NCBI RefSeq assembly: GCF_022483985.1
Contig: NZ_JAKVME010000001.1
Span: 1,550,001 to 1,614,000, forward strand
Direction of reading: 5' to 3'
Length of the DNA stretch: 64,000 nt
Source: Acetobacter sp.
GTDB taxonomy: Bacteria; Pseudomonadota; Alphaproteobacteria; Acetobacterales; Acetobacteraceae
Of this stretch, positions 35,729-53,709 are shown one piece after another (positions within the stretch are counted from its first letter, which is position 1; every line of letters begins with the position of its first letter). A program made the translations under genes and the position numbers. The notes under the pieces were generated by a model. That model had not been told where the DNA came from and searched no databases. It saw nothing but the letters and a program-made list of their open reading frames with translations.

Positions 35729-35780
35729 GGCGCGTACAGTATCATAATGCTCCCAGACGCAGCACTACCGGAGTCCCGCC

Positions 35781-36946: not shown

Positions 36947-38116
36947 TCACTGATGGAGGAAAGACTGTCCGTCTTTTCCTGATCGCCACGCTTCCAGCAA
37001 GGTCGCAGCGGGCAAAGCCCCGACCATCCACTCGCCGTTTCTCAGCCTCAACGGCAGATCAATGATCGTGTCAGGAGCAGCAGAATCCCCGGCTTTCTGC
37101 ACGTCTGAAAGCGGCTGAAGGTTTCCCTGCGCCCTGAAACGCTCGATCAGCAGAGTCATGCGACGCACATCCGGAGTGACCGCACGAGCCGCAACCATCG
37201 CATCAACGATTTTTTCCAGACCATGTAAGGTAAGGTCGAAATCGCCGACTGCATCATGCTGGAGAACAAGTTTTCCCGTGACAGAAAAAGAAGCCGCTCC
37301 AAACCGCGCCTCCCCAATATGCACTGTCAGTTTCCGGTCTTCCTCCTGCATCCCAGTAGCAGAAAAGGCCACATGCACGCGCTCGGCCAGATTACCGACA
37401 CCGGGCCATGCGACAGGCAGGGAAACAGACGAAATCGTCATATCCGCGGCCATTCCTTCGACACGACTCTGTTTCAGATACCATACCGTTCTGCCCTGAA
37501 GTTTTTTCAACCCGATACTGAACGGAAGCATCGGGTCCGCGAACCGGAAAGGCATCGCATGCACTTCTAGCCGGTCATCGTCCGCTGAAAGAGATGCGTG
37601 AATTTCTTTTCCATCATCAACCGGAAAAGCAGTCGCACGGACGCCATTACCGGTCAGCCTGAACGCCAGATCCGGATGGTCGGGATCATGACCCAGCAAG
37701 AGTGCCTGTGGTCCTGTAAAATCCATTCTGACTGAAGAGGAAAACGGTCCGGTGGGAGACAGGATCACGGCGTCACCACCATACACCAGATGCGAGTCTT
37801 TCAGGGGGCCTTCCAGACGGACGTCACGCAGCGTCACCTGCCACGGGACGGAAAAGGGACTGAACCCCGACACCCGCCATGAAACAGTCCAACCCTGCTT
37901 CAGAAAGCTGACACGTTCTGCATCAATCTTCCTGATAAGCCCCTGTCTGGCGACCATCATCCCGGCGCAGGCCATCACAACCAGAACGAGAACAGATCCA
38001 AAGACTGCAAGAAGACGGATGTGCTGTTTCAGTTGATACTTCCCTTTTCTGCCATGATCGTTACTCAGGCCTGCACCACACCACAGTTCAAGCCGACAGG
38101 CAGCGGAGCCGTTCAA
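36947..38116 (-). CDS. DUF2125-like membrane-anchored periplasmic protein
   Basis: A protein of about 389 residues with one transmembrane helix near its N-terminus (LLAVFGSVLVLVVMACAGMMV) and a large periplasmic beta-rich domain. GWTVSWRVSGFSPFSVPWQVTL followed by LRDVRLEGP matches the opening of DUF2125 (pattern judged by eye, shown in part). DUF2125 proteins are common in Alphaproteobacteria and of unknown role. The start is uncertain: the frame opens at ATG 38191, but TTG at 38116 has AGAGGA at good spacing, and no ATG or GTG lies between that and the helix. Confidence 0.65.
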   Translation of the reverse strand: MNGSAACRLELWCGAGLSNDHGRKGKYQLKQHIRLLAVFGSVLVLVVMACAGMMVARQGLIRKIDAERVSFLKQGWTVSWRVSGFSPFSVPWQVTLRDVRLEGPLKDSHLVYGGDAVILSPTGPFSSSVRMDFTGPQALLLGHDPDHPDLAFRLTGNGVRATAFPVDDGKEIHASLSADDDRLEVHAMPFRFADPMLPFSIGLKKLQGRTVWYLKQSRVEGMAADMTISSVSLPVAWPGVGNLAERVHVAFSATGMQEEDRKLTVHIGEARFGAASFSVTGKLVLQHDAVGDFDLTLHGLEKIVDAMVAARAVTPDVRRMTLLIERFRAQGNLQPLSDVQKAGDSAAPDTIIDLPLRLRNGEWMVGALPAATLLEAWRSGKDGQSFLHQ

Positions 38117-38160
38117 TAAAATCCTCTGCACATATGAGGATCGGTATGGATCGGGGAAAC

Positions 38161-38411
38161 TTATCCACAATTCATCAGCCGAAGCATCCACGTTTCAGGA
38201 AGAGCAGTTTTCCTTGAAACATCCGGAAAGAATATTATCATACGATTGTATAAATTTATAGAAATCCGCAGTATTCTGCCAAAAAATCGTACCGTTGTGT
38301 TTTATGCGAGAAACAGGCTTGACTTCATTGAAGCATGGGAAAAGCGGGAGATTTTACGGATCCCGCTTTCTACGTTCGAAGCCGCCATTTTATCCCACAG
38401 AGTTATCCACA
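38161..38411. other. Intergenic region with two consensus DnaA boxes and an AT-rich core
   Basis: TTATCCACA, the strong DnaA-box consensus, occurs at 38161-38169 and again at 38403-38411. A near-match TTATCCCACA lies at 38390-38399. Between them is an AT-rich stretch (about 38225-38290, with TTGTATAAATTTATAG). An inverted repeat AAAGCGGGA (38341-38349) / TCCCGCTTT (38361-38369) is also inside and can act as the terminator of plsC on the reverse strand. The arrangement could be a replication origin, a DnaA titration site or a DnaA-regulated promoter. Confidence 0.45.
38341..38369 (-). terminator. Putative terminator downstream of plsC
   Basis: A 9-bp stem AAAGCGGGA / TCCCGCTTT with an 11-base loop, 70 bases after the plsC stop; on the reverse strand TTT and then TCCC follow the second arm. 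Moderate support. Confidence 0.45.
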
Positions 38412-38439
38412 GGAAAGATTTTCTGAGGATTCAAGAGTT

Positions 38440-39156
38440 TCAGGCTCCCATACGGTCCTGCTCTTCCCTCCAGACCCGCTCAATCGCCTGAAGCATCTCT
38501 CCGCGCCCGGCGCCCTGCACCGGGTCACCGATAACGACCGAAATGGTTCCCGCACGCTTGAGAAAGCCCCTGTTGGGCCAGCAGAGCCCGGAATTGGTCG
38601 CGACAGGATAGACCGGCAGGCCGGTGTGCCGCGCCATGGCGACGATCCCCGGCTTGAGGGGAACCGTCTCTCCGTAGGCCATACGGGTGCCTTCCGGAAA
38701 AATGATCATCTGCCGTCCCTCGGCCGCCGCCCGCTCGGTTTCCTTCAGCAGATTGCGCATCGCCCTGCTCCCGCCCTCGCGCTGAACGGGAATCATGCCC
38801 GTAAGCTTCAGCATCGGCCCGACGAGCGGCACTTTCAGCAGTTCTTCCTTCATGATGTAGGTAGGCTTCGGGACGAGATTCATCCAGACCAGCGTGTCGA
38901 ACGCCGACTGATGCTGGGATGCGATGATGAACGGCCTGTCCGGAGGCAATTTGTCCAGCCCCTCGATATGCGTACGGATACCGCAGCAGAAACGACCGCC
39001 CGCCAGATAGAGTCGCGCCCAGAGCTTCGCATAAGGCATCGCGTACCGTGGCGCGAACAGGCGCACAGGCATGGCCGCCCACCCCATCAGAACGGAAATG
39101 ACGATGATATAGATCCGGAACAGGGCAGAACGGATCACTCTCATGACAGGGCTCAT
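38440..39156 (-). CDS. plsC: 1-acyl-sn-glycerol-3-phosphate acyltransferase (PlsC family)
   Basis: Acylates lysophosphatidate to phosphatidate at the inner membrane. The 238-residue protein has the catalytic HX4D motif in HQSAFD, the substrate-binding FPEGTRMAYGE and the IPVQREGGSRAM segment, after an N-terminal hydrophobic helix (IYIIVISVLMGWAAM). Two in-frame ATGs, 39156 and 39144, lie in a 12-bp tandem repeat; the first has GGGAGC at suitable distance. The frame is open to 39348, but that part overlaps psd upstream sequence and is unlikely. The gene is divergent from psd, so phospholipid genes cluster here. Confidence 0.9.
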   Translation of the reverse strand: MSPVMRVIRSALFRIYIIVISVLMGWAAMPVRLFAPRYAMPYAKLWARLYLAGGRFCCGIRTHIEGLDKLPPDRPFIIASQHQSAFDTLVWMNLVPKPTYIMKEELLKVPLVGPMLKLTGMIPVQREGGSRAMRNLLKETERAAAEGRQMIIFPEGTRMAYGETVPLKPGIVAMARHTGLPVYPVATNSGLCWPNRGFLKRAGTISVVIGDPVQGAGRGEMLQAIERVWREEQDRMGA

Positions 39157-39163
39157 GACAGGG
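39140..39163. repeat. 12-bp tandem duplication containing the plsC start codon
   Basis: CTCATGACAGGG occurs twice in direct succession (39140-39151, 39152-39163). Each copy carries an in-frame plsC ATG on the reverse strand. Confidence 0.9.
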
Positions 39164-39325
39164 CTCCCGGCTGGGCCTCGCGGCTGGATTGACGAGCTTT
39201 TCCGGTGCGCTCCCGCGGATCGGACAGGTGCGGATGGAGACCAGAAAAGCCCGAATGACGCAAGCCGGAGCCGGAATGTCACCTTTCTCTTGATTCCGCA
39301 GCGATGAACGGCCAAGAACGGGAAC

Positions 39326-40021
39326 ATGTCACTCCTAGGCTCTCTCAAGTTCGTCCTTTCCCGCCCGCATCGCGAGGCCTATCCGTTCCTTGGCGTCTCC
39401 GGCGCCGTGACGGTCGCCGCCCGCTATCTTGGCTGGCGCCGCAACTGCCCGGTTTCCCGGGGGATCGGCACCGTCAGCGGCCTGTTCTTCGGATTCTGCC
39501 TTTACTTCTTCCGTGACCCGGAACGGATCGCACCCGCGCGGGAAGGTCTGGTTCTGGCCCCGGCTGACGGGCGGATCGTGTCGATCGAAAAGATCGCCCC
39601 TCCCATCGAACTCGGCATGGGCGAGACACCCGTCTGGCGGGTCGCCACGTTCCTGTCCGTGCTGGATGTGCATGTGAACCGTATGCCGGTCGCCGGAACC
39701 GTCACGCGCATTGCCTACCATGAGGGCAAGTTCCTCAATGCCAGCCTCGACAAGGCTTCGACGGACAATGAACGCAACGCCATGAGCATCACGCTGCCGG
39801 ACGGCCGCATGGTCGCCGTAGTGCAGATTGCCGGGCTGATCGCCCGCCGCATCGTCTGTTCGGTCAAGCCGGGCGAGCGTCTGGAAGCCGGTGAGCGGTT
39901 CGGTCTGATCCGCTTCGGTTCGCGCACGGACGTTTATCTCCCGCCCGGTGTCGAGCCGCTGGTGGAAGTCGGTCAGACCATGATCGGCGGCGAGACGGTC
40001 GTGGCCGAGCTTGACGCCTGA
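39326..40021 (+). CDS. psd: Phosphatidylserine decarboxylase proenzyme
   Basis: Converts phosphatidylserine to phosphatidylethanolamine at the inner membrane, using a pyruvoyl group made by self-cleavage. The 231-residue length identifies the short, type II-like form common in Alphaproteobacteria. A hydrophobic segment lies near residues 50-62 ([11 protein letters not shown]); the active region includes [24 protein letters not shown] and, near the end, [13 protein letters not shown] with cleavage expected between Gly198 and Ser199 (the family usually has LGST; here FGSR). Downstream is pssA, the gene for the preceding step, 47 bases on. Confidence 0.93.
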
Positions 40022-40068
40022 TCCAGTGCTGCTCCGTCTTTTCCCCGTGATACGGGAGCATTGTGTTC

Positions 40069-40938
40069 ATGGCTGAAAGCGTAAGACGCAGGCGTCGCCG
40101 CCTGCGCGGGAGCCGTCCTGCCCGGGCGCGTGTGCGCGGGCCATCCTTCAATCGGCTCATCCCCAATCTGCTGACCATGCTGGGGCTTTGCAGCGGCCTG
40201 ATGGGCATGCGATTCGCGCTTGATGGCCGTTTTCATCATGCCGCCCTTGCCCTGCTGGCCTCGGCGATCATCGACGGCCTCGATGGCCGCATCGCACGTC
40301 TTCTGCGCGGCTCCACCCGCTTCGGCGCCGAGTTCGACAGTCTTTCCGACTTCCTCTGCTTCGGTGTGGCCCCTTCCTTCGTCCTCTATCTCTGGGCGCT
40401 GAAAGATGCCGGCCGTTACTCGTTCCTGCCCGGTATTCTGTTCACCGTCTGCATGGCGCTGCGTCTGGCCCGCTTCAACGCCAGCCTCGACGGCGAGGAA
40501 GAGCGTCCGAAATATGCGAGCAATTTCTTCACCGGCGTTCCGGCTCCGGCTGGCGCTGGGCTGGCGCTTTTCCCTCTCTTTCTGGGGCTTGAGGCGGAAA
40601 AGCTCGGCTATACCAGCCTCTACGAGATGACCCGTCTGCCCTGGCTGCCCATAGTGAGTCTGATCGGGACCGGCTTCCTGCTGGTATCCACCCTGCCTGT
40701 CTGGTCCTTCAAGAACTTCAAGGTGCCCGCCAAATATGTCCTTCCCATGATGCTGGGCATAGGCGCTTACCTCGTCGCTCTCGTAGCGGACCCATGGGGC
40801 GTTCTGGCGGGCATGGGCGTCGTTTATATCGCTCTGCTGCCTGTCAGCAGAATGAGTTTTCAGAGACTCAGAAGAGCCGCTGAAGCCTTGCAGGAAGACG
40901 AGGATGAGACGCTGCCGGAACATGCGGCCCGCCAGTAA
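40069..40938 (+). CDS. pssA: CDP-diacylglycerol-serine O-phosphatidyltransferase
   Basis: Makes phosphatidylserine from CDP-diacylglycerol and serine, the substrate of the Psd encoded just upstream. The 289-residue membrane protein has a very basic N-terminus (VRRRRRRLRGSRPARARVRG) and the CDP-alcohol phosphatidyltransferase signature DGLDGRIAR-x8-GAEFDSLSD at about residues 70-95, with multiple transmembrane helices. ATG at 40069 is used, with CGGGAG upstream; a GTG at 40063 is an alternative. The charged C-terminus extends past the last helix (residues 265-289). Confidence 0.92.
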   Translation: MAESVRRRRRRLRGSRPARARVRGPSFNRLIPNLLTMLGLCSGLMGMRFALDGRFHHAALALLASAIIDGLDGRIARLLRGSTRFGAEFDSLSDFLCFGVAPSFVLYLWALKDAGRYSFLPGILFTVCMALRLARFNASLDGEEERPKYASNFFTGVPAPAGAGLALFPLFLGLEAEKLGYTSLYEMTRLPWLPIVSLIGTGFLLVSTLPVWSFKNFKVPAKYVLPMMLGIGAYLVALVADPWGVLAGMGVVYIALLPVSRMSFQRLRRAAEALQEDEDETLPEHAARQ

Positions 40939-41169
40939 CACCAGCGGCCTTACGGCGTGATTTTTATGCGGGTTTGCGTGCCCCTTGAAGGGACCACAGT
41001 CCCCTTCACCCCAATGTACTGGCGATAAACAGTCTCTGAAGGCCCGGCTTTGGCGGGGGCCGGGACAACACCCCGTCAATCTCTCCCGCAAAAAGGATCA
41101 GTCCATAGGACGGTTGGATGAGAAGCAAAGCGTCCCAGATACACACGCCCGACGTAAGACCGGATGGAC

Positions 41170-41658
41170 TTACGCGTCCATGACGGGCGCAGGTGTGGGG
41201 GAGAGAAGGCTTACGATCCCCTGCAGGATGGCATCGGGCGTCGGAGGGCAGCCGGGGATGGCGCAATCCACCGAGGCCCGCTTCTCCAGCCCTCCGAGAA
41301 CAGCGTAATTCTCGGCGAACGGTCCTCCGTCAATCGCGCAGGCTCCGACCGCCAGCAGGCCTTTCGGCTGAGGCATGGCTTCCCATGCGGCCTTGACCAC
41401 GGGAGCCTGCATCCGGGTGCAGGTGCCGGTCACAAGCAGCATATCCGCAAGTCGGGGCGCGTCCGTGAACACAATTCCCGCTTCAGCCAGACCGTAATCA
41501 CCCTTCCTGAGAGCCTCGATCTCAAGACTACAGGCCTCGCAGCCACCGCTGTCCACATGAAAGAAAACCAGCGGAGAACGGGAGACAACCGGCGGCAGAG
41601 CGGGACCGGATGGCGCAAGCAGGGAGGTGAACAGTGCACGGATCAGAACAGTCGACAC
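41170..41658 (-). CDS. NuoB/HyfI-like small [4Fe-4S] subunit of an Ehr-type complex
   Basis: A 162-residue protein like complex I NuoB and the small subunit of group 4 hydrogenases, which carries the proximal [4Fe-4S] cluster next to the large subunit. All four cluster ligands appear present: C40 and C43 in CEAC, C107 in GACA and C137 in PGCPP. CEAC, with spaced cysteines, is the hydrogenase-like rather than the NuoB (CC) pattern. It is the last gene of the operon, 55 bases after the large-subunit gene. Electron transfer in or out of the complex thus remains plausible although no ferredoxin-type subunit is encoded. Confidence 0.82.
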   Translation of the reverse strand: MSTVLIRALFTSLLAPSGPALPPVVSRSPLVFFHVDSGGCEACSLEIEALRKGDYGLAEAGIVFTDAPRLADMLLVTGTCTRMQAPVVKAAWEAMPQPKGLLAVGACAIDGGPFAENYAVLGGLEKRASVDCAIPGCPPTPDAILQGIVSLLSPTPAPVMDA

Positions 41659-41713
41659 GGTAACCTCCTCCCTTCCGGCTTGTCACAGACATGAAACAGC
41701 CGCAGGAGTATCC

Positions 41714-43345
41714 TTACAGATCAACAGCCGCGACCGAAACACCGAACGAACAGCGCACGGCATCAAATCTGGAAGGGCAGCCTCCCGAAAGCGCCATCTC
41801 CTGCACGTCCTGCAACACACCCGCAGGATCAGCGATGAACGTGCGCTCCACACGCCCTTCCCGCAAAATCACAACGTGACAGATCAGTCCGTCCGGCCCT
41901 TCAACGGCGGCATACCCCTCGCAGCGTTCATGAGGAACCTTGACCGGGCTGAGAAATGACAACGGCCCGGATTCACTCTCAACCGTAAACATGGCTCCGA
42001 AAGCGGCAATCATCCGCAGACTTTCCGCAATATCCTCAAGACGGATACGGCAACGGGCAGCGGCATCGCCCTCAATCGTGACGGGAGTGCGGATTCGCAC
42101 GCTTGAATACGCTTCCATGGACTGGCGCAGATCGGCTCCCCTGCCGCAACTCCGACCAACCGCGCCGCCCAGAACGAGATCATCCGCCAGCCGCCTCGGC
42201 ACCACTCCCTCACCGACCAGACCGGACGTCACAACGCCGGTTGCCTGCCAGAGCGCCTGCATATCGGGAAAGTCTCCCGTCCCGAAGACGGCGATTTCCT
42301 CGCAGAGGGCTCTGAGCCCATCGAGAACGACATCCTGATGCACCTGTTCATGCCCGGAAACAGCAAGCGTAACGCCACCCGGCACCACGCAGTCCAGCAA
42401 CAGACGCCGTCCGATGGTCGCCTGACAGACGCGGGAAAGGATGTCGCGCGCCTTGTAGAGTCGGGCTGCCAGCATCTCCGCTCCAGCGGCATCCGCTGTC
42501 CGCGCCAGCCAGATGAGATGCGTATGAACCCGCTCGATCTCACACAACATCGCACGGATATGTCCGACCATCGGCGTGACCGTCACGCCTGCCGCCTGTT
42601 CGACTGCAGCGCTGAAAGCCCATTGATGCGCCAGCGTCGCGCCCACATGGATTCGCCCACTCAACCCCGCCGCGTCAGCAAGCGGGACTCCCGCCATCCG
42701 CGCTTCCATGCCCCGATGCGCAAAGCCGGTCAGGGTCTCGACGGTACGGATCCGCCCGTTTGCGACACCAAGGCGAAAATGCACAGGTCCCTCAGCGCCA
42801 CCGGATGCCGGTCCACGCGAAAAAACCATTCCCTGTGCCGCGACCAGCGGGTCCGGCGCGGAAAACTCCGGCATGTCGGTCATGCCCGAGGCTGGCACCG
42901 GTCGTTTCACCAGTGGAGCCGTCACCGTCCACGCACCACGATCCACCAGCGGTCGTGTGTCCGCCGCGTCCATGGCCTCGACGCCCCACAGGTCGCGGAT
43001 CATCCGCTCGAACGGCGCGGTCCGATGGCGGATCGCTGAAAAACCGCGATAACGGGGGCCGTCCAGCACCAGAGACGCCATCAGCGGTCTCAACCCGACC
43101 TCGCCCCCCGGCACGCCGTCATTGAAAAAAGCATGCACAGACCGACCGTCACACCAGAGCCCCAGCAAGGTCGCCGGATCGTCACGCAGACGCTCCACCA
43201 GATCGAACCATGTGTCTTCGGTCAGTTCAAAACGCCATGACGTTTCGGTTTTTCGGCCACTCCGAATGAGTGTCCGCACGGAGGGCGCAGACGTGTCCTG
43301 AACAGCCAGAGCACCGCCGCCGAACAGGATGGGTGGAATGCTCAT
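41714..43345 (-). CDS. NuoC-NuoD fusion (HyfG/HycE-like large subunit) without NiFe ligands
   Basis: A 543-residue fusion. Residues about 30-135 are a NuoC-like domain (FERMIRDLWGVEAMDAADTRPL matches the NuoC signature, in part); residues 160-543 are NuoD/hydrogenase-large-subunit-like with HRGMEARMAG at 210-219. The first NiFe motif, normally RxCGxC, reads SGRIHVGATLAHQW at about 229-242, with no cysteine, and the C-terminal DPCxxC is absent: the end is VRCSFGVSVAAVDL. It therefore cannot hold a NiFe site. This matches the Ehr class described in the literature, whose reaction is unknown. Coupled by ATGA to the gene before it. Confidence 0.85.
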   Translation of the reverse strand: MSIPPILFGGGALAVQDTSAPSVRTLIRSGRKTETSWRFELTEDTWFDLVERLRDDPATLLGLWCDGRSVHAFFNDGVPGGEVGLRPLMASLVLDGPRYRGFSAIRHRTAPFERMIRDLWGVEAMDAADTRPLVDRGAWTVTAPLVKRPVPASGMTDMPEFSAPDPLVAAQGMVFSRGPASGGAEGPVHFRLGVANGRIRTVETLTGFAHRGMEARMAGVPLADAAGLSGRIHVGATLAHQWAFSAAVEQAAGVTVTPMVGHIRAMLCEIERVHTHLIWLARTADAAGAEMLAARLYKARDILSRVCQATIGRRLLLDCVVPGGVTLAVSGHEQVHQDVVLDGLRALCEEIAVFGTGDFPDMQALWQATGVVTSGLVGEGVVPRRLADDLVLGGAVGRSCGRGADLRQSMEAYSSVRIRTPVTIEGDAAARCRIRLEDIAESLRMIAAFGAMFTVESESGPLSFLSPVKVPHERCEGYAAVEGPDGLICHVVILREGRVERTFIADPAGVLQDVQEMALSGGCPSRFDAVRCSFGVSVAAVDL

Positions 43346-44526
43346 GAGCGCCCCTCCCTGCTGCCTGATCTAACACTGGTGGTCTTAGGAACCACGACGC
43401 CGGACGGGAAGAGTCGGACGGCAGGCCGTAATGCGGGCCATATCGCCACAATCAGCAGCAGCGCGAGCGGCAGGGACGTTGTCGCCACCAGCATCACCGC
43501 CAGAAGAAGCGCCGCGAACCCCGGCAGCAGAAACGCCCTGTCAGCCAGCAGTTTCAGGCGGGAATCCGGCTTTCCGGACAAGGAAAACCATGGCGTTGCG
43601 ACAAGCGGGCCAAATACAGCCAGATCAGCCACAAGAGGATGGGCCAGTCCCGCGGAGACAGCCGCAAGCCCCATGGATGCCTGCGTGAGCAGCGCGGCAG
43701 GCTGCGCGGACCGCAATCTGAGTCGCAGGGCGGCCAGCGCCAGCGTACCGAGCCCCGCCGCAAAGAACAGTCCCCTCAGACCTAGCCCGGTTACTGGCGG
43801 CAGGGGGAAAGTCACCAGCAATGCCACCACGGCCAGCGTTGCGGCATTGGCTCGCAGGATTTCAGAAGCGTCGCCTGCCCGCTCTGTTCGTGTCACGTTC
43901 AGGAGCGCCGTGCAGGGAAACAGGCTGGCGAGCAGGCAGAACCCACATCCGGCGAGCACCCCTTCGATAACCGGATCAGGATGCAGGAATCCACTACAGA
44001 CCAGCAGAGCGCCCGTGGCGGTCCGACGAAGTGTGTTCCAGCCCGAAAGTGCGCGACCCGGACCCGTATCGAGCAGAATCACGGTCAGAACAGGAGCCGA
44101 CAGCAGCATGGCCGCGCGGGCGACGGGCTCCGAGAGCATCATGGCCAGAACCAGCAGTCCCGTGGTCCAGAACGGAACAGCATCACGGGCGACCAGAGCC
44201 CGCTCTTCTTCAGGCTGCGGGGGTGCAAAGCACTGCGATACCAGACCGGCATGCAGGAGCAGGCAGCCGACCGCAGCCAACGGCGCTTCGATCATCCATC
44301 CCAGTTTCACGCCTTGTCCGGTTGCGGCCAGATAGAGGGAGAAAGGCACATTGAGCGCCGCCAGTCCCAGCGCGACAAGGGAGAAATTGGCGGCAAGCTG
44401 GGAGAAGCGGTTTTTCGTCTCCTCATCGCCCACCCGACTCTCCGGACCGAAAGCCGCGATGATCACACCGGCGAGAAACGGCCAGACAAGGCTGAGAAAG
44501 AGGATGATATCCGCTGCCATGAGCAT
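43342..44526 (-). CDS. HyfF-like antiporter-type membrane subunit (short)
   Basis: A 394-residue polytopic membrane protein (about twelve helices) at the place where HyfF/NuoN-type subunits occur in hydrogenase-4 operons. It is shorter than HyfF (about 520 residues). The usual discontinuous-helix motif of the family (FHxWLPxAHxxAP) is not visible. ATG at 44526 overlaps the previous stop by one base; the frame open to 44949 is the reverse complement of the upstream gene's coding region and is not used. Assignment rests on context plus general antiporter-like pattern. Confidence 0.65.
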   Translation of the reverse strand: MLMAADIILFLSLVWPFLAGVIIAAFGPESRVGDEETKNRFSQLAANFSLVALGLAALNVPFSLYLAATGQGVKLGWMIEAPLAAVGCLLLHAGLVSQCFAPPQPEEERALVARDAVPFWTTGLLVLAMMLSEPVARAAMLLSAPVLTVILLDTGPGRALSGWNTLRRTATGALLVCSGFLHPDPVIEGVLAGCGFCLLASLFPCTALLNVTRTERAGDASEILRANAATLAVVALLVTFPLPPVTGLGLRGLFFAAGLGTLALAALRLRLRSAQPAALLTQASMGLAAVSAGLAHPLVADLAVFGPLVATPWFSLSGKPDSRLKLLADRAFLLPGFAALLLAVMLVATTSLPLALLLIVAIWPALRPAVRLFPSGVVVPKTTSVRSGSREGRS

Positions 44527-45140
44527 CAGAATCCGCCCTCCCCGCGCTCTGTGGATTTCAGCCGCAGAAGGGACAGACGGCGCACAAGCCACGTTCCCGC
44601 CCCGGCGAGCAGCAGCACGCATATACCGACAAGCCAGCCCGCATAGGGATTGCGGATGTTGGCCGCTGTCAGCAGCAGCCCGTCGCAGGCCGTCAGGAGA
44701 CCGGCCAACTGGTAACGTGCGCCGGAACGCAGCGACAGCGTGGCCAGCCCGATAAAGGTCACGCCGAGCGCCACCGTCACCACAGCCGCGTCGATCGGGA
44801 TGAACGGCGCCGCAAGCAGGGCCGGATTCTGAAGCATGTCCTCGGATGGCAGGCTCAGACTGGCGGCAATCAGAAGCGCCAGAGACAGGATAACCGCTCC
44901 GGCCACACGCGACGGGCCGGTTTCGTCCGTATAGCGCCCCAGCCACCATGCCGGAGCGATCGAGATCGTCAGCGCGCTGACCGCCGCGAAGAGAATGACG
45001 GCAGGAAACGGGTCAGGAGTCGCGTGACGCAGCAGCAGGATGGAAAGAGCCGTCAGCAGCCCTGTCACCGGCGTCACCATCAGACCCGTGAGAAGCGTCA
45101 GCAGAGCCAGCAGAGGCAGAAGGGCAAGCGCGAGCGTCAT
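44526..45140 (-). CDS. HyfE-like membrane subunit
   Basis: A 204-residue membrane protein with six to seven hydrophobic helices (ALLPLLALLTLLTGLM; SALTISIAPAWWLG; GAVILSLALLIAASLSL; VVTVALGVTFIGLATLSL; AGLLTACDGLLLTAANI; LVGICVLLLAGAG). Length, position and the late AANIRNPYAGW segment fit the HyfE / NuoK-extended subunit of hydrogenase-4-like complexes. It overlaps the gene on each side: ATGA upstream, TGATG downstream. A membrane-arm role is inferred from the operon. Confidence 0.7.
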   Translation of the reverse strand: MTLALALLPLLALLTLLTGLMVTPVTGLLTALSILLLRHATPDPFPAVILFAAVSALTISIAPAWWLGRYTDETGPSRVAGAVILSLALLIAASLSLPSEDMLQNPALLAAPFIPIDAAVVTVALGVTFIGLATLSLRSGARYQLAGLLTACDGLLLTAANIRNPYAGWLVGICVLLLAGAGTWLVRRLSLLRLKSTERGEGGF

Positions 45141-46189
45141 CGTTTTTCGATATCCGTTCGACGGACGGCAGGATGTTCCGGGGACGGTGTTTCCGGACCC
45201 TTCTTTTCTGCCTTTTCTGTTTTTTCTGTGGGCCTGTCACCGACCGGCGGCATCAGGCGGGCAGACGTCATCAACTGAAGCGCCAGCACGGCCAGCAGCA
45301 GCGCCGACGCCGCCCGCAGACGCACCGCAGTCAGATCACCGAGCGCCAATGCCCGACCGGTCGCAAGAACGATCGCCAGCAGAAAACTCCGCAGAAACCA
45401 GCACAGCACACCAAGCACCAACGCGCCGCAGCCACTCAGGAACGATGGACTGCCGAGAACCGAGACCAGCGAACCCGGCCACATCAGATCACTGGCCAGA
45501 GTGAGCCATGTCAGAGCCGCGATATCCCGCGACAGCATCAGAAGCGCCCCATCGCTTCCCGGCTCCTCAAAATCATACCTTTCCACCGGATCGACAGCCG
45601 CCAGCAAAGCCGCACCGGCCAGCACACAGGGCGCACCATCCACGAACGGGTTTTCATGGCTCATGCCCGCCAGCACGGAAGCAAGACCGGTCGTCGCACC
45701 GGCGCTGAAAAGAAGCGCCACCAGCAGAAACAGACAGGGCAACACCAGCGCCAGAGCGAGCGCCCGTCCGAATGCAACCGTGGCGCGCTCCGCAGGCTGG
45801 GCCAGCCCCGGCAGCAGCGCAGTGAAACGGGCCAGCACCAGCAGTAATCCCACGAGCAGAAGGTCCGACCATGAGCCGGTCCCAAGTTCCTGCGTGAAAG
45901 CGGGGACAAGCAATACTGCACATAGGGCGGCGGCCAGAGAAAACGGCGCGACGATCCCGGTGATCGTCCCTTCGACCAGTGGCGGCGCGTCGCTCTGCCG
46001 GACAGGCGGCGCATGGCCCCATTCACGCCCGATGACAAACCAGCGCCGCAGCACAGGCGATGCGGGAACACCCGACATTCTCGCCGAGAAGAAACTGCGG
46101 AATCCGCTTAGAAGCGGTCCGACAAGCACCACCAGCGCCAGTTGCAGCACTGTCAGCAGAACGGAGAGAACGATCTGAAGAATGGTCAT
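45137..46189 (-). CDS. HyfC/HycD-like (NuoH-family) membrane subunit
   Basis: A 350-residue membrane protein corresponding to NuoH/HycD, the subunit that anchors the hydrophilic arm. About eight hydrophobic helices are separated by polar loops; VERYDFEEPGSDGALLMLSRDIAAL resembles the family's acidic loop (PFDxPE...), broken here, and the C-terminus is a charged tail (EKTEKAEKKGPETPSPEHPAVRR). Overlaps the preceding and following genes by 4 bases each. NuoH-type subunits couple electron transfer to ion movement, so the acidic residues may matter. Confidence 0.75.
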   Translation of the reverse strand: MTILQIVLSVLLTVLQLALVVLVGPLLSGFRSFFSARMSGVPASPVLRRWFVIGREWGHAPPVRQSDAPPLVEGTITGIVAPFSLAAALCAVLLVPAFTQELGTGSWSDLLLVGLLLVLARFTALLPGLAQPAERATVAFGRALALALVLPCLFLLVALLFSAGATTGLASVLAGMSHENPFVDGAPCVLAGAALLAAVDPVERYDFEEPGSDGALLMLSRDIAALTWLTLASDLMWPGSLVSVLGSPSFLSGCGALVLGVLCWFLRSFLLAIVLATGRALALGDLTAVRLRAASALLLAVLALQLMTSARLMPPVGDRPTEKTEKAEKKGPETPSPEHPAVRRTDIEKR

Positions 46190-47961
46190 GGCGTCAACGC
46201 CGACAGGGAAACGCCAAGCGCTGCCAGAACAAGCACCACGGCAGTCGCGTGGTCCGCGAACGGTGCGGTTTTCAGCAGCATCCGTCGAAGCCTATGCAGA
46301 CAACGCGCACCAGACCGCAGGATCAGCGAGCGGGACATGATCCTGCGTCGTCCCTGAGGGAACAGCACAGCACGCAGCGCGGACGGCACCATATCGACGC
46401 CCGACCAGATCAGCGGCTCGCCGAATGGCAGCCACGGCGCCCGTGCCGTCAGCCCGCCCAGCCAGGGCGTCGTCTCGCCTGTGTGAATATCCGGCAAGAT
46501 CTCGCGTTTCAGAGTGGGCGCACGCCCCCGCGAGCGCAGGGTCTCCTGCTGCGCCAGCCGTATAATCAACACGATCAGCAGCAGGAGCGCCGTGACACCG
46601 ACCGGCATCCATGAGGACAGTCCATCGGGAGCCACCAGCGTAAAGAAGGGTTGAGGCGTCGGACGCGCCTCGCCTGTCAGTTGGTGCAGGACTGGCTCGG
46701 CCAGACGCAGCACGCCGCCCGGCACCAATCCGGCCACAACAGCGAACAACACTGAGCCGGAGACTGGTAGTAGAGTGGGCCAGACCGCATCCGGGCAGGC
46801 CGCCATGCGGGGACTGCGGGCGCTGCCGAGCAGAAGGAGCGCGGCCAGTCTCAGCGCCGCCAGTCCGGTCAACGCGACAAGGACGCCAAGCGCGAGCAGA
46901 AAAGCCAGTGACGGCAGAGCGGCGGCAAATCCATCCGGCAGCAGGCCAAGAGCCGTTTCAACCAGAAGCCACAGGATGGTGAAGCCGCTCGCGGGCGGCA
47001 GAAAGGTGAGAATCAACAATGTCGCAGCGAACAGGCCCGCCAGTCGGGGCGCGAAGAGGATGAGTCCTCCCAAACGCCCGAGCTGATCCGAACCGGCTCC
47101 TTCCGCGATCAGGCCACCGGTCCGCAGAAACGCTATGGAGACGGGCCAGAGAATCACTAGCCCCAGTACCAGCGCACTGGCCGCCACGTGCGCCGTCAGG
47201 GCGGAACCGGACGCGCCGGCAAGGAGCAGCAACCCAAGCGAGCTGATGCTCAGCGCGGCAGGCAGACCAGCTAACCCGACAGTCGCGATACTGCCTTTAC
47301 GTGTGGTGAGCGTGGAAAGCACACGCCCGAACGCCAGCATCATCCCGCCGACAATCAGCGTCGCGGTCATGACGGGTGTGATCACGCTGTCGGGTCTGAG
47401 AAGAACACGGCAGAGCAGCAGCAGGCCGCAACCGGCTTCCAGCATTGGCGCCACTGCGAAATCAGGCTGCCTGCGTCCCGCCCCTGCCGTACAGGCCAGA
47501 GCGGCGGCGATCGCCATCCATTCAACGCCAGAAGCAGAACCCGGCGCGCAGGCGGCGGCGAAAAGAAGCGTCCGCAGACACCCGGCTGAGGCCTTCTGAC
47601 GTTCCGGGAATGCCAGTATCAGCGCCAGACAGCCGGTCACCATCAAGGCCGCCGTGTCGCTGGCGAAGGCGACCAGACAGGCTGACGCACAGGCGAGAGG
47701 CAGACGTCCTCCGGGCCTGATCCAACGCTCCGAACAGCAGCCGAGAATGGCGAACACCACCAGAAACAGGCAACCGAGCGGGTCAGGCGTGAAGAACGGC
47801 AGAACGGAGGACATCACGCCCGCGCTCCACGGCAGCACAAACAGCGCAACCATCGCCGCGATCAGCCACATTCCCTGACAGACCAGCCGCTGTTGCCCCG
47901 GAGGCAGCCCGACCCACCGTTCAGGCGTGCCCGAAAGCAGACTGGCTAGAAGAACCGGCAA
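46186..47961 (-). CDS. HyfB-like antiporter-type membrane subunit
   Basis: A 591-residue protein with some sixteen hydrophobic segments, resembling the NuoL/HyfB subunit at the head of hydrogenase-4-type operons. Like the HyfF-like protein it shows no FHxWLPxAH motif, and lysine is scarce within its helices. The only available start is TTG at 47961; the frame upstream stays open into parC and reads a hydrophobic helix (HFLILTILILL), so the true start may be an atypical codon further up. It is the first gene of the six-gene operon and directly follows parC. Confidence 0.68.
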   Translation of the reverse strand: MPVLLASLLSGTPERWVGLPPGQQRLVCQGMWLIAAMVALFVLPWSAGVMSSVLPFFTPDPLGCLFLVVFAILGCCSERWIRPGGRLPLACASACLVAFASDTAALMVTGCLALILAFPERQKASAGCLRTLLFAAACAPGSASGVEWMAIAAALACTAGAGRRQPDFAVAPMLEAGCGLLLLCRVLLRPDSVITPVMTATLIVGGMMLAFGRVLSTLTTRKGSIATVGLAGLPAALSISSLGLLLLAGASGSALTAHVAASALVLGLVILWPVSIAFLRTGGLIAEGAGSDQLGRLGGLILFAPRLAGLFAATLLILTFLPPASGFTILWLLVETALGLLPDGFAAALPSLAFLLALGVLVALTGLAALRLAALLLLGSARSPRMAACPDAVWPTLLPVSGSVLFAVVAGLVPGGVLRLAEPVLHQLTGEARPTPQPFFTLVAPDGLSSWMPVGVTALLLLIVLIIRLAQQETLRSRGRAPTLKREILPDIHTGETTPWLGGLTARAPWLPFGEPLIWSGVDMVPSALRAVLFPQGRRRIMSRSLILRSGARCLHRLRRMLLKTAPFADHATAVVLVLAALGVSLSALTP

Positions 47962-48046
47962 CAGGATAAGGATCGTCAGGATGAGAAAATGTCCCGCATG
48001 ATGCGAACCAACGCGATGACGCGGGCGCTCACCCGCAAGGAGTAGA

Positions 48047-50266
48047 TCAGGCTTTCTTCATCGCCCATGGTGGAGCCGCCTTGCCCGTGGCAGCGCGTTT
48101 TCCGGCCCAGGGCTCAAGCTCGGCAAAGCCACGGACCCTCACAGCGCCCGGCCAGAGCAGCCCTTCCGCCGCACTGAACACCACGGCCTGACGGAGACCG
48201 AGCTTCGCACCGCCATCCGGATATTTCTGGAGCGTGACGCCCAGCCCCTTCGCCATCACGGGGAGCTGATCGACCGGGAAGACGAGCAGACGCTTGTCTC
48301 CACCATAGACCGCGACCTGATCACCCTGAGCAGGGACGCAGAGACGTGCACTTTCGTCATCCTTGAGATTGAGCACCTGCTTTCCGCTGCGCTTCTCAGC
48401 GGCAAAGTCGGTATCGGCCACAATCATGCCGCGTCCGACACTGGAGGCGACAAGACGCTTCATGCCTTCTTCAATGACGAACACGGAGAGAATCTCCTCG
48501 TCGTTGGACAGATCCATCAGCAGACGTACGGGCTGGCCGTCACCGCGACCACGCGGGATATCGCCCACACTGACTGTGAAGGCACGGCCATCCGTGGCGA
48601 AGAAGCAGATACGGTCCGTGCTCTGACAGGGCAGAGCGAGGCGGAGGTCGTCGCCTTCCTTGAATTTCTGGGTGCTGGCGTCGATGCCGTGGCCCTTCAC
48701 GGCACGGACCCAGCCCTTTTCGGACAGTATCAGGGTCAGCGGCTCGCGCTCGACCAGCGTAGCGGCGGACAGGTCGATCTGCGGCGGTGGTGCGCCGAGC
48801 GTGCTGCGACGTGCGCCCAGCGGACCAGAACCAAAATTCCTGCCGATTTCCTTCACCTCGGCGGCGATGCGGGACCAGCGGAGTTTTTCGTCGGCCAGCA
48901 GAGCGCGGAGTTCATCGCGTTCAGCGGAGAGCGCGCCATGCTCCTTGCGGATTTCGATCTCCTCCAGCTTTCGCAGGCTGCGCAGGCGCATGTTGAGGAC
49001 GGCTTCGGCCTGCATGTCCGTCAGGCGGAAGGTCGCCATCAGGCTGGCCTTGGCGTCATCCTCCTCGCGGATGATGCGGATCACCTCATCGAGATTGAGA
49101 TAGACGGCGAGGAAGCCTTCGAGAATTTCGAGACGTTTTTCGACGGCGGCGAGACGATGGGCGCTCCGGCGCTCCAGTACTTCGTGACGATGATCGAGCC
49201 ACGCCTGCAACACGGATCGCAGATCGAGCACGGCGGGAGCGCGATCCGGGCCGATGACGTTCATGTTCAGAGAGAAGCGGCTTTCGAGCTGGGTCGCCCT
49301 GAACAGCGTCTCCATCAGCACTTCCGGCTCGATGGTGCGGTTTTTCGGCTCCAGCACCAGACGGATATCAGCCGAGCTTTCGTCGCGGATATCGGCCAGA
49401 AGGGGCAGTTTTTTCTGCACCAGCAGGTCGGCGATCTGCTCGATCAGACGGGATTTCTGCACCTGATAGGGGATTTCCGTGACCACCACCTGCCATGTGC
49501 CGAAACGGCCCTGTTCGACTTCCCAGCGGGAGCGGATACGGAAACCGCCACGTCCGGTCTCATACGCCTTCAGGATGGCGTCCGAATCCTCGACGATGAT
49601 GCCGCCCGTCGGGAAATCCGGTCCGGGCATATGCTGGAGAAGCTCGGCCACAGTGGCCTCGGGCTTGCGGATCAGAAGCGCGGCGGCGGCGCAGATTTCA
49701 CCGGCATTGTGCGGTGGAATGCTGGTGGCCATGCCGACGGCGATTCCCGCCGCACCATTGGCGAGCAGATTCGGGAAGGCGGCGGGCAGGACGATCGGCT
49801 CGGCGTCCTCGCCGTCATAGGTGGGACGGAAATCGACGGCGTCGTCATTGATGCCTTCGAGCAGCGCCTGCGCGACCTTGGTCAGCCGGGCTTCGGTATA
49901 TCGCATGGCGGCGGCGTTATCGCCGTCCACGGACCCGAAATTGCCCTGCCCTTCCACGAGCGGGAATCGGACGGCGAAATCCTGTGCGAGCCGGACGAGC
50001 GCCTCGTAGACCGAGGCGTCACCGTGCGGATGGTATTTACCGATCACGTCACCGACGACGCGTGCACACTTTTTAAACCCGGATGCGGGATCAAGGCGGA
50101 GCTGGTGCATGGCGAAGATGAGTCGCCTGTGCACCGGCTTGAGACCGTCCCGCACATCCGGCAGCGAGCGGGACATGATTGTCGACAGCGCGTAAGCCAG
50201 ATACCGCTCGCTCAGGGCGTCGGTAAGTCGGGTATCCTCGATATGGCCTGCGAACGTGTCACTCAT
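48047..50266 (-). CDS. parC: DNA topoisomerase IV subunit A
   Basis: The 739-residue DNA-cleaving subunit of topoisomerase IV, which decatenates daughter chromosomes. The catalytic tyrosine lies in AAMRYTEARLT near residue 121, after the quinolone-region HPHGDASVYEALVRLAQDF (residues about 78-96); these identify the type IIA fold. The length and a short C-terminal domain favour ParC over GyrA (usually about 870-900). The gene is monocistronic or read through into the membrane-complex operon, since the HyfB-like gene starts less than 100 bases downstream on the same strand. Reported start ATG at 50266. Confidence 0.95.
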   Translation of the reverse strand: MSDTFAGHIEDTRLTDALSERYLAYALSTIMSRSLPDVRDGLKPVHRRLIFAMHQLRLDPASGFKKCARVVGDVIGKYHPHGDASVYEALVRLAQDFAVRFPLVEGQGNFGSVDGDNAAAMRYTEARLTKVAQALLEGINDDAVDFRPTYDGEDAEPIVLPAAFPNLLANGAAGIAVGMATSIPPHNAGEICAAAALLIRKPEATVAELLQHMPGPDFPTGGIIVEDSDAILKAYETGRGGFRIRSRWEVEQGRFGTWQVVVTEIPYQVQKSRLIEQIADLLVQKKLPLLADIRDESSADIRLVLEPKNRTIEPEVLMETLFRATQLESRFSLNMNVIGPDRAPAVLDLRSVLQAWLDHRHEVLERRSAHRLAAVEKRLEILEGFLAVYLNLDEVIRIIREEDDAKASLMATFRLTDMQAEAVLNMRLRSLRKLEEIEIRKEHGALSAERDELRALLADEKLRWSRIAAEVKEIGRNFGSGPLGARRSTLGAPPPQIDLSAATLVEREPLTLILSEKGWVRAVKGHGIDASTQKFKEGDDLRLALPCQSTDRICFFATDGRAFTVSVGDIPRGRGDGQPVRLLMDLSNDEEILSVFVIEEGMKRLVASSVGRGMIVADTDFAAEKRSGKQVLNLKDDESARLCVPAQGDQVAVYGGDKRLLVFPVDQLPVMAKGLGVTLQKYPDGGAKLGLRQAVVFSAAEGLLWPGAVRVRGFAELEPWAGKRAATGKAAPPWAMKKA

Positions 50267-50311
50267 GTCCTGTGTCCTCCGTCGTGCGCACCCATAACGG
50301 AGAGATACGCT

Positions 50312-50764
50312 TTGGCCAACGTCCTGACAGGTTTTTCACACAGTCCGACATTTCGCCTCATCTCTCTGTTCGCCACATTGGGCGGCCTTTCCGCCTGTTC
50401 ACCGGCTGACCGGTATCTCCGGACCGGTGAACAACTCGCTTACAGCGGCTTTACGGCGCATGCCGCCAATACCACAGCCCGCGACGAGATGATGAATCTT
50501 ATCCCGGCCGGAATGCTGACCTATCGTCCGACCACCACAGGCCCCGTCTACCTTTACGCCGACCGTATCGGGTGTGGGTGCGTCTATATGGGCAGTCAGG
50601 CCGCTTTCGTGGACTACTCCCACAAAACGCTGAAGGGCGTGCCCAGTCAGGCGGCGATGACAGCCGAGATCAACCAGCATCCGGGCTGGGACTGGAGCGT
50701 CTGGTCAGAAAACGCCGATCCCGGTCCCAACCAGCCAAAGCATGTCATCGGCGCTGAATGGTGA
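50312..50764 (+). CDS. Hypothetical lipoprotein divergent from parC
   Basis: A 150-residue lipoprotein. The start is TTG at 50312 with CGGAGAGA eight bases upstream; an ATG-initiated reading would lose the signal peptide. The lipobox is GLSAC (about residue 29). The mature protein has a small well-spaced domain with CGCVYMGSQAAFVDY and a Trp-rich end (HPGWDWSVWSENADP). No family recognised. The frame continues upstream across the parC antisense strand, but that part is a shadow. Divergent from parC with 45 bases between. Confidence 0.75.
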   Translation: MANVLTGFSHSPTFRLISLFATLGGLSACSPADRYLRTGEQLAYSGFTAHAANTTARDEMMNLIPAGMLTYRPTTTGPVYLYADRIGCGCVYMGSQAAFVDYSHKTLKGVPSQAAMTAEINQHPGWDWSVWSENADPGPNQPKHVIGAEW

Positions 50765-50987
50765 ATTTCTTCAGCATGGGAACAAACGGAAAGATCGCAG
50801 TCTTTCAGTCCTGATCTGCCGTGCGAATCAGGAACCTGCTCTCCGTTTGTGAAAATGAAAGACATCCATCCGGTTTCAGACAAGCAGAATGGGGAAAGCA
50901 GGATTTTCCTTTCCTGCGTCTTTCGTCCGAGCCGGTTAAAGCCCTATAAATCAGAGACAGAATTTTACACCCGGACACAGGCAGATC

Positions 50988-51755
50988 ATGCCCGAAAGCC
51001 TCAGCAAACCGACCAGTTCCCTGATACTGGCGCGTACCCTGCATGTCGTCCGCAAAGGCGATGCGCCTCCCATCATCTCGCTTCCTCCTCATTTCATCCC
51101 GGACTCAGAAGAAGCCGCCTATGAGGTCCAGAATCATGTCGCAGCCCTGAGCGGTCCCGTGCGTGGTTGGAAGGTCGGCGCATCCGGTCCGGACGCGGAA
51201 CCTTCTGCCGCCCCTCTGCATGCTGAGACCTTGTTTACAGATGGTGTCATCCTCCCGGCCGATTTCTTCAATCATCGCGGGGTGGAAGCCGAAATCGCCT
51301 ATCGTTTCGACAGAGCCGTCGGCACGGATCTGACCCCGGATGCCGTTCTATCCGCCATCGGCAGCGTCCATCCGGCCATTGAGGTCGTGGATACCCGCTT
51401 CATCGCACCCGACACCCAGCCACGTCTGGCGCATATGGCTGACCAGCAGAATCACGGAGCGCTCATTCTTGGTCCGGCTTTTTCAGACTGGCGGCGCTTC
51501 GATCCCGCTCAGGAAAAGTTCGTGATGAGAATTGATCACCGCCGCGTATCGGAGCAGATCGGAGGTAATGCGGCGGGCGACCTGACGCGGCTGCTGATCT
51601 GGCTGGCTGCTCATGCGGCGCGGCGCGGACTGCCGATCGAGGCAGGAACCATCGTGACAACCGGTTCTCTGTCTGGTGCATTTTTCGTGCCGCACCGGAC
51701 CCATGTGAGCGTCCAGTTCGATACACTTGGAACAGTGACAGCGTTTCTAGAATAG
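50988..51755 (+). CDS. 2-keto-4-pentenoate hydratase / fumarylacetoacetate hydrolase-family enzyme
   Basis: A 255-residue enzyme of the FAH superfamily (MhpD-type), which hydrates 2-keto-4-pentenoates in aromatic ring-cleavage routes or decarboxylates related oxo-acids with Mg2+. The early GPVRGWKVGASG and the central metal-binding GVEAEIAYRF (Glu-x-Glu) with AIEVVDTRF and then the C-terminal TIVTTGSLSG segments are typical. There are no other ring-cleavage genes nearby, so the reaction is uncertain. Start at ATG 50988. Confidence 0.82.
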   Translation: MPESLSKPTSSLILARTLHVVRKGDAPPIISLPPHFIPDSEEAAYEVQNHVAALSGPVRGWKVGASGPDAEPSAAPLHAETLFTDGVILPADFFNHRGVEAEIAYRFDRAVGTDLTPDAVLSAIGSVHPAIEVVDTRFIAPDTQPRLAHMADQQNHGALILGPAFSDWRRFDPAQEKFVMRIDHRRVSEQIGGNAAGDLTRLLIWLAAHAARRGLPIEAGTIVTTGSLSGAFFVPHRTHVSVQFDTLGTVTAFLE

Positions 51756-51962
51756 CCCGCACCCTGAGCCTGAACGCGATCCTCTTCCGCTCTCTGTGCA
51801 GACTTTCAGGCTTCAACCTCTCATCTGCCAGAAGCCGAGGTTACAGAAACCCACGCTGGAAGCCGCTGACACCACCCGTTCGATAAAACACAGGCGCGTC
51901 CGCCCTCCCGCGTGACCGCCGCACAGACTGCGGTGTCATTAACGCGTTGGGAAGACAGCCCG

Positions 51963-52733
51963 TCAGTCGCTCACCGGTCCCGCCACGAAAGACTGCACAA
52001 TATCCGTCAATCTGATTCGCGCCGCGGGAAGCGGGCGATGAAGAGGACCAAATACGTCGCGGGAGAGAAAATGGCCTGTCAGACGCAGACCGTCCCTCCA
52101 GTCCTCTGGTGCGCCACAGTCGGCGTCCTCAATCAGGAAGCCGGGTAGCGGCAACAGGCGTGAGGCCCATTCTCCCGCTCCTTCCCGGGATACGGCGCGC
52201 CCCGTACGGGGCGACACGTAGATCAGTGCATCGGCCTGACCCGTAACGGCACAGCAGGACAAATCCAGTGCGAAACCAAGGTCCCGCAACAGGACCGTCT
52301 CCCACCGGATGAGCGTCGAAATCTCCGTTTCCACGCCCTGTGTCCCGAGCATCGCGAGCACCTGCGCACTATCCTGACATAGCCCGGGATAAGGCTCGCC
52401 TTCCGCCAGCGCGCTATCCGCGACAGCGCAGAGAGAGCTCAGACAGGCGAGACTGGCGCGCGATGACAATGCACGGGCGGCATTTGGTCCTGCCAGTTCG
52501 CCGGAAATCGTCCCGAGCTGCCCCGGAATACGCGTCCGCCACTGGGCCTGCACGAGATTGCCGTTCTGCCATGTTGCGGCATTACGGCGTCCAAGGCCGC
52601 CCTTGACCAGACCATGTGACACACCCTGAGCCGGAGAGAACAGATGCACGAGAGCATCCGCTTCTCCGAAGGGCGCGACAGATAAAACAAGGGCGGGTGC
52701 TTCCCACTCAAGAGATGCCCCGCCCCCGCTCAT
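51963..52733 (-). CDS. recO: DNA repair protein RecO
   Basis: RecO loads RecA on SSB-coated ssDNA together with RecR in gap repair. The 256-residue protein has an N-terminal OB fold (EWEAPALVLSVAPFGEADALVHLFS) and then a helical domain (LIRWETVLLRDLGFALDLSCCAVTG); the sequences are shown in fragments. Length and fold fit the family. It starts 18 bases after the tsf stop on the same strand, so it is the third gene of the rpsB-tsf-recO cluster. Confidence 0.9.
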   Translation of the reverse strand: MSGGGASLEWEAPALVLSVAPFGEADALVHLFSPAQGVSHGLVKGGLGRRNAATWQNGNLVQAQWRTRIPGQLGTISGELAGPNAARALSSRASLACLSSLCAVADSALAEGEPYPGLCQDSAQVLAMLGTQGVETEISTLIRWETVLLRDLGFALDLSCCAVTGQADALIYVSPRTGRAVSREGAGEWASRLLPLPGFLIEDADCGAPEDWRDGLRLTGHFLSRDVFGPLHRPLPAARIRLTDIVQSFVAGPVSD

Positions 52734-52751
52734 ATCAGAACGATCCGCTGA

Positions 52752-53657: not shown

Positions 53658-53678
53658 GATTCTCTCTCCACAATAGCA

Positions 53679-53709
53679 GCAAGCACGTCACCCTGCGGGA
53701 CGTGCTTGC
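53679..53709 (-). promoter_or_regulatory. Hairpin between rpsB and tsf
   Basis: A perfect 11-bp inverted repeat GCAAGCACGTC (53679-53689) / GACGTGCTTGC (53699-53709) with a 9-base loop in the 105-base rpsB-tsf spacer. It ends 22 bases upstream of the tsf start and lacks a U-tract. It may attenuate or protect the transcript and set the rpsB:tsf ratio. Confidence 0.5.

Follow-up and report, generated by a model that had tools for sequence, protein, structure and literature searches.

The window analyzed here, the whole stretch of 64,000 nucleotides (positions 1..64,000) taken from contig NZ_JAKVME010000001.1 of an Acetobacter sp. (GCF_022483985.1), carries on its minus strand a six-gene operon that runs from 47961 to 41170 and encodes a relative of complex I and hydrogenase 4. 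The gene order given in a preliminary description, HyfB-HyfC-HyfE-HyfF-NuoCD-NuoB, was confirmed by the open reading frames (ORFs), by Pfam matches and by the relatives. All six ORFs were found, with products of 591, 350, 204, 394, 543 and 162 residues. The first encodes a HyfB-like antiporter-fold subunit (46186..47961), the TTG start of which is uncertain, and is followed by a HyfC/NuoH-like membrane anchor (45137..46189), a HyfE-like membrane subunit (44526..45140), a HyfF-like antiporter subunit (43342..44526), a fused NuoC-NuoD large subunit of the HycE/HyfG type (41714..43345; PF00346, E 2.4e-13) and a NuoB/HycG/MbhJ-like small subunit with hydrogenase-type CxxC spacing (41170..41658; PF01058, E 3.5e-24), all on the minus strand. 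The junctions between consecutive genes were -4, -4, -1, -4 and +55 bases, so that five genes are indeed chained by overlaps of 1-4 bases. The four membrane subunits had no meaningful match in Pfam, the best for HyfF being DUF5345 at E 0.0077, below the cut-off of that family, and HyfB alone among them was recognized by NCBIfam, weakly (E 2.3e-10); HyfE had no match of its own in either collection. The putative identities of HyfC, HyfE and HyfF rest on position in the operon and on relatives, and that of HyfB on these together with its predicted fold. No frame error was seen and close relatives gave the same reading.

A protein search with the large subunit returned 37 relatives, and those labeled with an organism came from Acetobacter species and one Rhodopila. 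A scan of named genomes with one peptide pattern gave 146 relatives, the best 80 of which were retained; the titles of these 80 were mostly Acetobacteraceae or Rhodospirillales, a few lacked a family name and one, L099, was labeled Nitrosovibrio. The window, the best 80 of the 146 and 20 loci chosen among the HyfF-profile matches of 31 genomes made up the 101 loci compared below. All six genes were readable in 83 of the 101, while the other loci were cut by contig ends or had no HyfE, HyfF, HyfC, HyfB or small subunit detectable by search. The six-gene set was widespread in Acetobacteraceae and was present in 20 of the 20 loci read outside this family within the class, the class being assigned from the kinship of the window to Acetobacter. 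The HyfF profile matched 31 of the 387 genomes sampled from the class and, at E 1e-80 or better, 208 of 397 family genomes and none of the 14 of the window genus; all six genes were open in each of the 17 Acetobacter rows. Matches to the large-subunit profile occurred in 391 of the 397 family genomes, a figure that also includes NuoD and so is not an operon count.

When the window large subunit was aligned to E. coli HycE, the four positions of the NiFe cysteines were occupied by H, A, S and A. The first motif (42626..42658, minus strand) reads GRIHVGATLAH where HycE has DRVCGICGFAH, and the C-terminal motif (41717..41749, minus strand) reads SFGVSVAAVDL where HycE has SLDPCYSCTDR. In an alignment with E. 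coli HycE and HyfG, none of the 101 large subunits had more than one cysteine at these positions. A single cysteine occurred at the second position in 5 of the 101 rows and at the other three positions in none, whereas the positive controls, HycE, HyfG and the locus L175, displayed both CxxC pairs. The absence of all four NiFe cysteines, as first described, thus held, and in the other members, too, these positions were without conserved cysteines, the single ones of the five rows apart. NiFe maturation removes a C-terminal extension of the large subunit of group 4 hydrogenases. The displayed family rows terminate at the DL motif or its equivalent, while HycE and HyfG continue for 32 residues more. 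The window protein is accordingly not a member of the group 4 [NiFe] hydrogenases, both the CxxC pairs and the C-terminal extension being absent. The best match of its predicted fold was formate hydrogenlyase (FHL; 7z0s). Vestigial NiFe cysteines in NuoD are treated in the accessible part of PMC8879329.

The four cluster cysteines of the small subunit were retained, as had been described. C40 and C43, which form the CxxC (41530..41541), and C107 (41338..41340) were each present in 102 of 102 rows of an alignment of 99 family and three E. coli sequences, and C137 (41248..41250) in 100 of the 102; all lie on the minus strand. The subunit matched MbhJ (6cfw_J) at E 1.1e-26, free of gaps from seven residues before the first cysteine, with one inserted residue further upstream. 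Universal conservation of the ligands, which was true of these 99 family rows bar one substitution and one gap, was overturned by wider sampling. In 22 genomes picked for a moved gene or a suspected loss of ligands, hence a non-random sample, the ligands read CCCC in 16, CCCS in G056 and G219, and SCCC in G001, and the three genomes of the genus g100 had one of the four. Loss of the entire small subunit in some lineages had been considered because the gene was absent from four stretches, and was rejected when it was found elsewhere in those genomes. A PF01058 gene was present in 16 of the 17 genomes searched, the exception being G066, and in 14 of 14 of a further set; the small subunit was kept even where it had been relocated from the operon. 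In G066, both the large- and the small-subunit genes were absent.

No frame carrying two CxxCxxCxxxC motifs was found in the window, so the operon indeed has no HyfH/NuoI ferredoxin subunit. The same scan of 133 loci gave six positives: L175, four Belnapia/Craurococcus loci in which the frame was on the minus strand and outside the operon, and L129, whose 77-residue frame looks spurious. A ferredoxin subunit overlooked in the operon was therefore rejected. No ORF of the 20 added loci had HyfA, HyfD, HyfH or HyfJ as its best match (1e-6). Since six genes without a ferredoxin subunit are the norm in the loci read, the operon is not unusual in gene content, and its portrayal as an unusually stripped-down Ehr operon did not stand. 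The window genome encodes elsewhere a separate NuoD (398 bits) and a single NuoI above the cut-off, 5 kb from the canonical NuoD. The control, L175, lies at 3402-9531 of its stretch in G029, an Acetobacteraceae genome of 1.9 Mb, and is a genuine FHL-type NiFe hydrogenase. It differs from the rest of the operons read in the family in carrying CGIC, DPCYSC and ferredoxin-type frames; that it scored positive for both shows that the NiFe and ferredoxin tests are able to detect what they sought. Two more NiFe-less large subunits, L203 and L204, both of genome G058, branch outside the main family, and the L204 small subunit has an apparent two-cluster ferredoxin domain fused at its N-terminus, from which the missing ferredoxin subunit may have originated.

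The preliminary description also envisaged a possible ion-pumping machine, for which the membrane arm gives no support. Seven channel residues were traced in each of HyfB and HyfF, in alignment columns anchored on the pump-competent relative L075. In window HyfB, the Glu of transmembrane helix (TM) 5, the TM7/TM8 Lys, the TM10 His/Lys and the TM12 Glu were all lost, and window HyfF, which has 394 residues compared with about 480 in pump-competent relatives, had L, L, T, V, W, S and L at the seven key columns. The clade of the window kept 4 of 203 such positions in HyfB and 9 of 196 in HyfF (13/399 in total), whereas the other Acetobacteraceae, except L071, kept 256 of 259 and 318 of 329 (574/588) and the 20 added loci of the class 280 of 280, that is, 854 of 868 for the pooled relatives, L071 apart. 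The eight coupling residues of HyfC were kept at 160 of 160 positions in the added loci and 327 of 328 in other Acetobacteraceae, as against 35 of 232 in the window clade. L071 kept 3 of its 14 channel residues and 6 of the 8 HyfC residues. According to the accessible part of PMC7684303, the HyfC-equivalent TMH5-6 loop belongs to a three-loop system linking the redox site to the membrane arm.

Patterns that are independent of alignment gave the same picture for two of the subunits. The HyfB TM7 motif K(A/S/G)..P.H.W was found in 55 of 87 rows and was absent from all 29 clade rows as well as from L058, L071 and L082, and the RxPxDxP motif of the HyfC TM5-6 loop was found in 62 of 91 and was missing from exactly the 29 clade rows. 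Since the corresponding HyfF patterns missed many good rows, matching 44 of 96 or, in a looser form, 61 of 96, the loss of residues in HyfF rests on the alignment. L082 from Pseudoroseomonas vastitatis, which lies near L071, shows a channel Lys changed to Arg in HyfB and to Gln in HyfF with the remainder intact, and looks like an intermediate state with pump loss in progress. Window HyfB ranged from 86 to 18% identity to its relatives and was 21-25% identical to five pump-competent rows, which were among the 32 input rows of its fold prediction; the predicted structure retains the antiporter fold, with FHL (7z0s) as best match. The window genome has a third Proton_antipo_M protein, a 574 aa frame at G000:C3:129343-130197 on a separate contig, away from the other two.

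The redox side of the pump-competent relatives also has a characteristic sequence. Those displayed have SGDS in the place of HycE CGIC, and most have NCSYSG in the place of DPCYSC, while the window has HVGA and GVSVAA. In L118-L137, L195 and L197, all pump-competent, the C-terminus of the large subunit is very conserved, with CNKSFNCSYSGHDL in most. Together with SGDS, this C-terminus is a candidate for a defined active site in these relatives, and in those of the Limobrevibacterium or Belnapia type the residues conserved at the NiFe positions hint at a defined substrate.

The pump was lost more than once. In a tree of 72 rows based on the large and small subunits, the 27 rows labeled pump-less formed one clade (support 100/100; 100% of 200 bootstrap trees) nested inside pump-competent Acetobacteraceae; an earlier tree, which had also included seven rows omitted here, three of them pump-less (L049, L055 and L065), likewise gave a single clade, and L071, which groups with Pseudoroseomonas, was labeled pump-competent in both. 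In a tree of 97 rows, with L071 and L196 labeled pump-less, at least three changes were needed, one for a clade of 49 rows (SH-aLRT 99), one for L071 and one for L196, the genome of which also holds a pump-competent copy, L197. A single loss was thus rejected, L071 being the second and L196 the third. The larger tree is a quick one with long branches, from which thirteen earlier rows and L178 and L207 were omitted; L173 and L201, which have no readable HyfB, HyfF or HyfC, were pump-less by default, L170-L172 and L174 were labeled by HyfF alone, and several rows were treated as pump-competent with their HyfB unread. It is on L071 and L196 that the count of three hinges, and HyfB and HyfF were read in both.

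The ratios of nonsynonymous to synonymous substitution (dN/dS), calculated by the Nei-Gojobori method for nine pairs of the clade (eight each for HyfB and HyfE), with dS > 1 in two of the nine, were 0.11-0.33 for HyfB, 0.11-0.22 for HyfC, 0.04-0.18 for HyfE, 0.03-0.33 for HyfF, 0.08-0.25 for the large subunit and 0.01-0.15 for the small subunit. Four pump-competent pairs gave 0.04-0.30. The small subunit ranked lowest or joint lowest in six of the nine pairs, came second in two more and third in the remaining pair. On these ratios, all six genes are preserved by natural selection. The large subunit was retained in genomes of about 2 Mb and in eleven genomes with no NuoD match (G054, G131, G250, G032, G118, G061, G070, G101, G170, G302 and G323), the first eight of which are 99-100% complete and the last two of which were scored at a cut-off of 1e-40. 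Seven of the eleven are in the 97-row tree, all within the 49-row clade, and the eight searched for PF01058 had one gene each. The large-subunit gene is broken up in both G126 and G286, one of them with an internal TGA, which may point to decay of the complex in individual strains.

Relatives of complex I are read as redox-driven ion pumps. Lacking a NiFe site, the window complex is not a hydrogenase, and although its antiporter fold is kept, the loss of the Lys/Glu/His relay and of the HyfC coupling loop means that it is not an ion pump of the canonical kind. All the genes are preserved despite the loss of both the NiFe site and the pump residues, so that the operon probably serves a purpose other than the two already known, those of complex I and of gas-making hydrogenases. 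Our preferred, though tentative, reading is a non-hydrogenase, non-pumping complex that carries out uncoupled electron transfer via one [4Fe-4S] cluster. It would be membrane-bound, with the architecture of formate hydrogenlyase or hydrogenase 4, in which the NuoB-like subunit, carrying a single [4Fe-4S] cluster, is mounted on the NuoCD-like subunit and a four-subunit membrane arm. The single cluster would relay electrons from an unlinked soluble donor to a hydrophobic acceptor, for which quinone is the obvious candidate, in the empty cavity of the large subunit, and the membrane arm would serve as anchor and shell only. The cavity-loop histidine (HRG/HKG) is present in 30 of 30 clade rows. 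Several observations weigh against this proposal. The same histidine is also found in hydrogenases, no residue pattern specific to quinone was shown and no donor gene was conserved next to the operon in the loci compared. Moreover, the complex is retained in the genus g100 with just one of the four cluster cysteines left in all three genomes sampled, and one ligand was lost in each of G056, G219 and G001, so that the cluster chemistry is not essential throughout the clade. In g100, dN/dS was 0.38-0.40 for the small subunit and 0.12-0.17 for the large subunit (stop-to-stop frames were used for G157/G200). From the ligand readings and these ratios, the cluster looks functional where its ligands are retained and dispensable in g100.

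The losses in g100 lend themselves to another explanation, in which the complex is a pseudoenzyme without a catalytic role that serves as a membrane platform with a structural or regulatory function. That genus has lost three of the four cluster cysteines while its large subunit remains constrained, and the membrane arm is constrained despite its lost channel residues. There is also a precedent, according to the accessible part of PMC10715153, in deranged respiratory proteins kept in Acetobacteraceae, and because of this and the g100 ligand loss the platform ranks close behind electron transfer. We regard it as possible but less probable, given that the cluster ligands are retained in most of the lineages read and that the small subunit so often has the lowest dN/dS. 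A role as stabilizer of complex I is unlikely, considering the eleven genomes without a NuoD match and the single PF01058 gene of the eight searched. In its broadest form, a whole machine of the complex I family would have turned pseudoenzyme, losing NiFe ancestrally, the pump at least three times and most Fe-S ligands in one genus, with the scaffold selected for some role outside bioenergetics in these aerobic acetic acid bacteria; this, too, we consider possible rather than probable. Ion pumping by unconventional means, through new charged residues, is improbable. The HyfB antiporter fold is predicted to be intact, the membrane genes are under selection and position 80 of HyfF (E80) is acidic, E or D, in all 17 Acetobacter rows, but no Lys or Glu of the HyfB hydrophobic segments is kept in at least 16 of these 17 rows, and the coupling loop of HyfC has been lost too. 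The search for new conserved charges in HyfB yielded only two Arg among the Acetobacter rows, and across the membrane arm the conserved charges are Arg except for a single Asp in HyfC. It is still less probable that the operon is a relic on its way to loss and kept by chance. The membrane subunits do diverge fast, as the identities of HyfB illustrate, and the large-subunit gene is broken in G126 and G286 and has gone, together with that of the small subunit, from G066, but dN/dS is well below 1 for all six genes, which are open in every Acetobacter row, and the large subunit persists in the genomes of about 2 Mb. Least probable of all is a sulfane-sulfur reductase that, in the manner of Pyrococcus MBS, would have its catalytic site at the proximal cluster, as the window aligns to MbhJ without a deletion where the MBS motif is three residues shorter and as MBS, according to the portion of PMC7684303 available, has a ferredoxin subunit and pumps.

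Beyond the end of the operon, pssA- and psd-type genes of phosphatidylethanolamine synthesis adjoin it at 39326-40938. The family read as pssA adjoins the operon in 18 of 19 acetous rows and that read as psd in 17 of 19; this adjacency is probably synteny. The family read as parC adjoins it in 9 of the 19, and the position next to parC mentioned at the outset is thus not general but incidental. The names parC and pssA are our own reading, Pfam naming the window's own copies only. A survey for partner genes found no neighbor family common to all four locus groups, and the most widespread families were lineage-specific. A literature search of titles and abstract openings, partial in coverage, gave no description of the complex in Acetobacteraceae, and the accessible main text of PMC12041372, on gene essentiality in Gluconobacter, had no match for the terms tried.

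The family offers a natural series of stepwise losses, first of the metal site, then of the pump and last of the cluster ligands, through which the proteins were retained; it provides replicate losses for comparison and pump-competent sister complexes as controls. Acetobacter and the relatives without a NuoD match are tractable hosts for testing the job of the complex that remains.

Among known systems, the Ehr complexes are described in the accessible part of PMC6349859 as relatives of group 4 hydrogenases that lack the Ni/Fe-coordinating residues and have Mrp antiporter-like subunits, with a suspected coupling of redox chemistry to charge translocation. The first label given to the operon, Ehr-like, is fair by that account. 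Its large subunit lacks the Ni/Fe-coordinating residues and it has Mrp/HyfB-type membrane subunits, HyfB by predicted fold and HyfF by position and relatives only, but it differs in having no ferredoxin subunit and in belonging to a clade that has lost the channel residues on which charge translocation depends. Ehr is the right shelf for its descent, while the sequence of the window member does not bear out the term energy-converting. The gene order B, C, E, F, G, I is that of hyf, and E. coli FHL/hydrogenase 4 gave the best fold match for HyfB and the large subunit; the window differs in the absence of the NiFe site, HyfA, HyfD, HyfH, HyfJ and the C-terminal extension. The six-gene complexes recognized by NF005043, hydrogenase 4 subunit F, belong to the same family (the Acetobacteraceae member L075 scores 568 with a cut-off of 533), and the 20 read from the class have all the channel residues and mostly the SGDS ... 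NCSYSG signature, both of which the window has lost. Complex I NuoB has an adjacent Cys-Cys pair, according to the accessible part of PMC7684303, where the window has CxxC, and the operon has no NuoI. In the same source, Pyrococcus MBS is likewise a NiFe-less complex I relative with antiporter subunits, but it has a ferredoxin subunit, working pumps and a site-differentiated cluster, the open iron of which results from a Cys motif three residues shorter; the window has no such deletion relative to MbhJ. The closest parallel in the same bacteria is the deranged bc1 complex and COX1-like protein of Acetobacteraceae, for which a structural or regulatory platform was proposed (PMC10715153, as far as accessible). 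That is a different complex, and the accessible main text does not contain the term hyf, but there too respiratory proteins were kept after the loss of their ligands, and the complex described here is one more that joins the deranged respiratory enzymes already known from this family.

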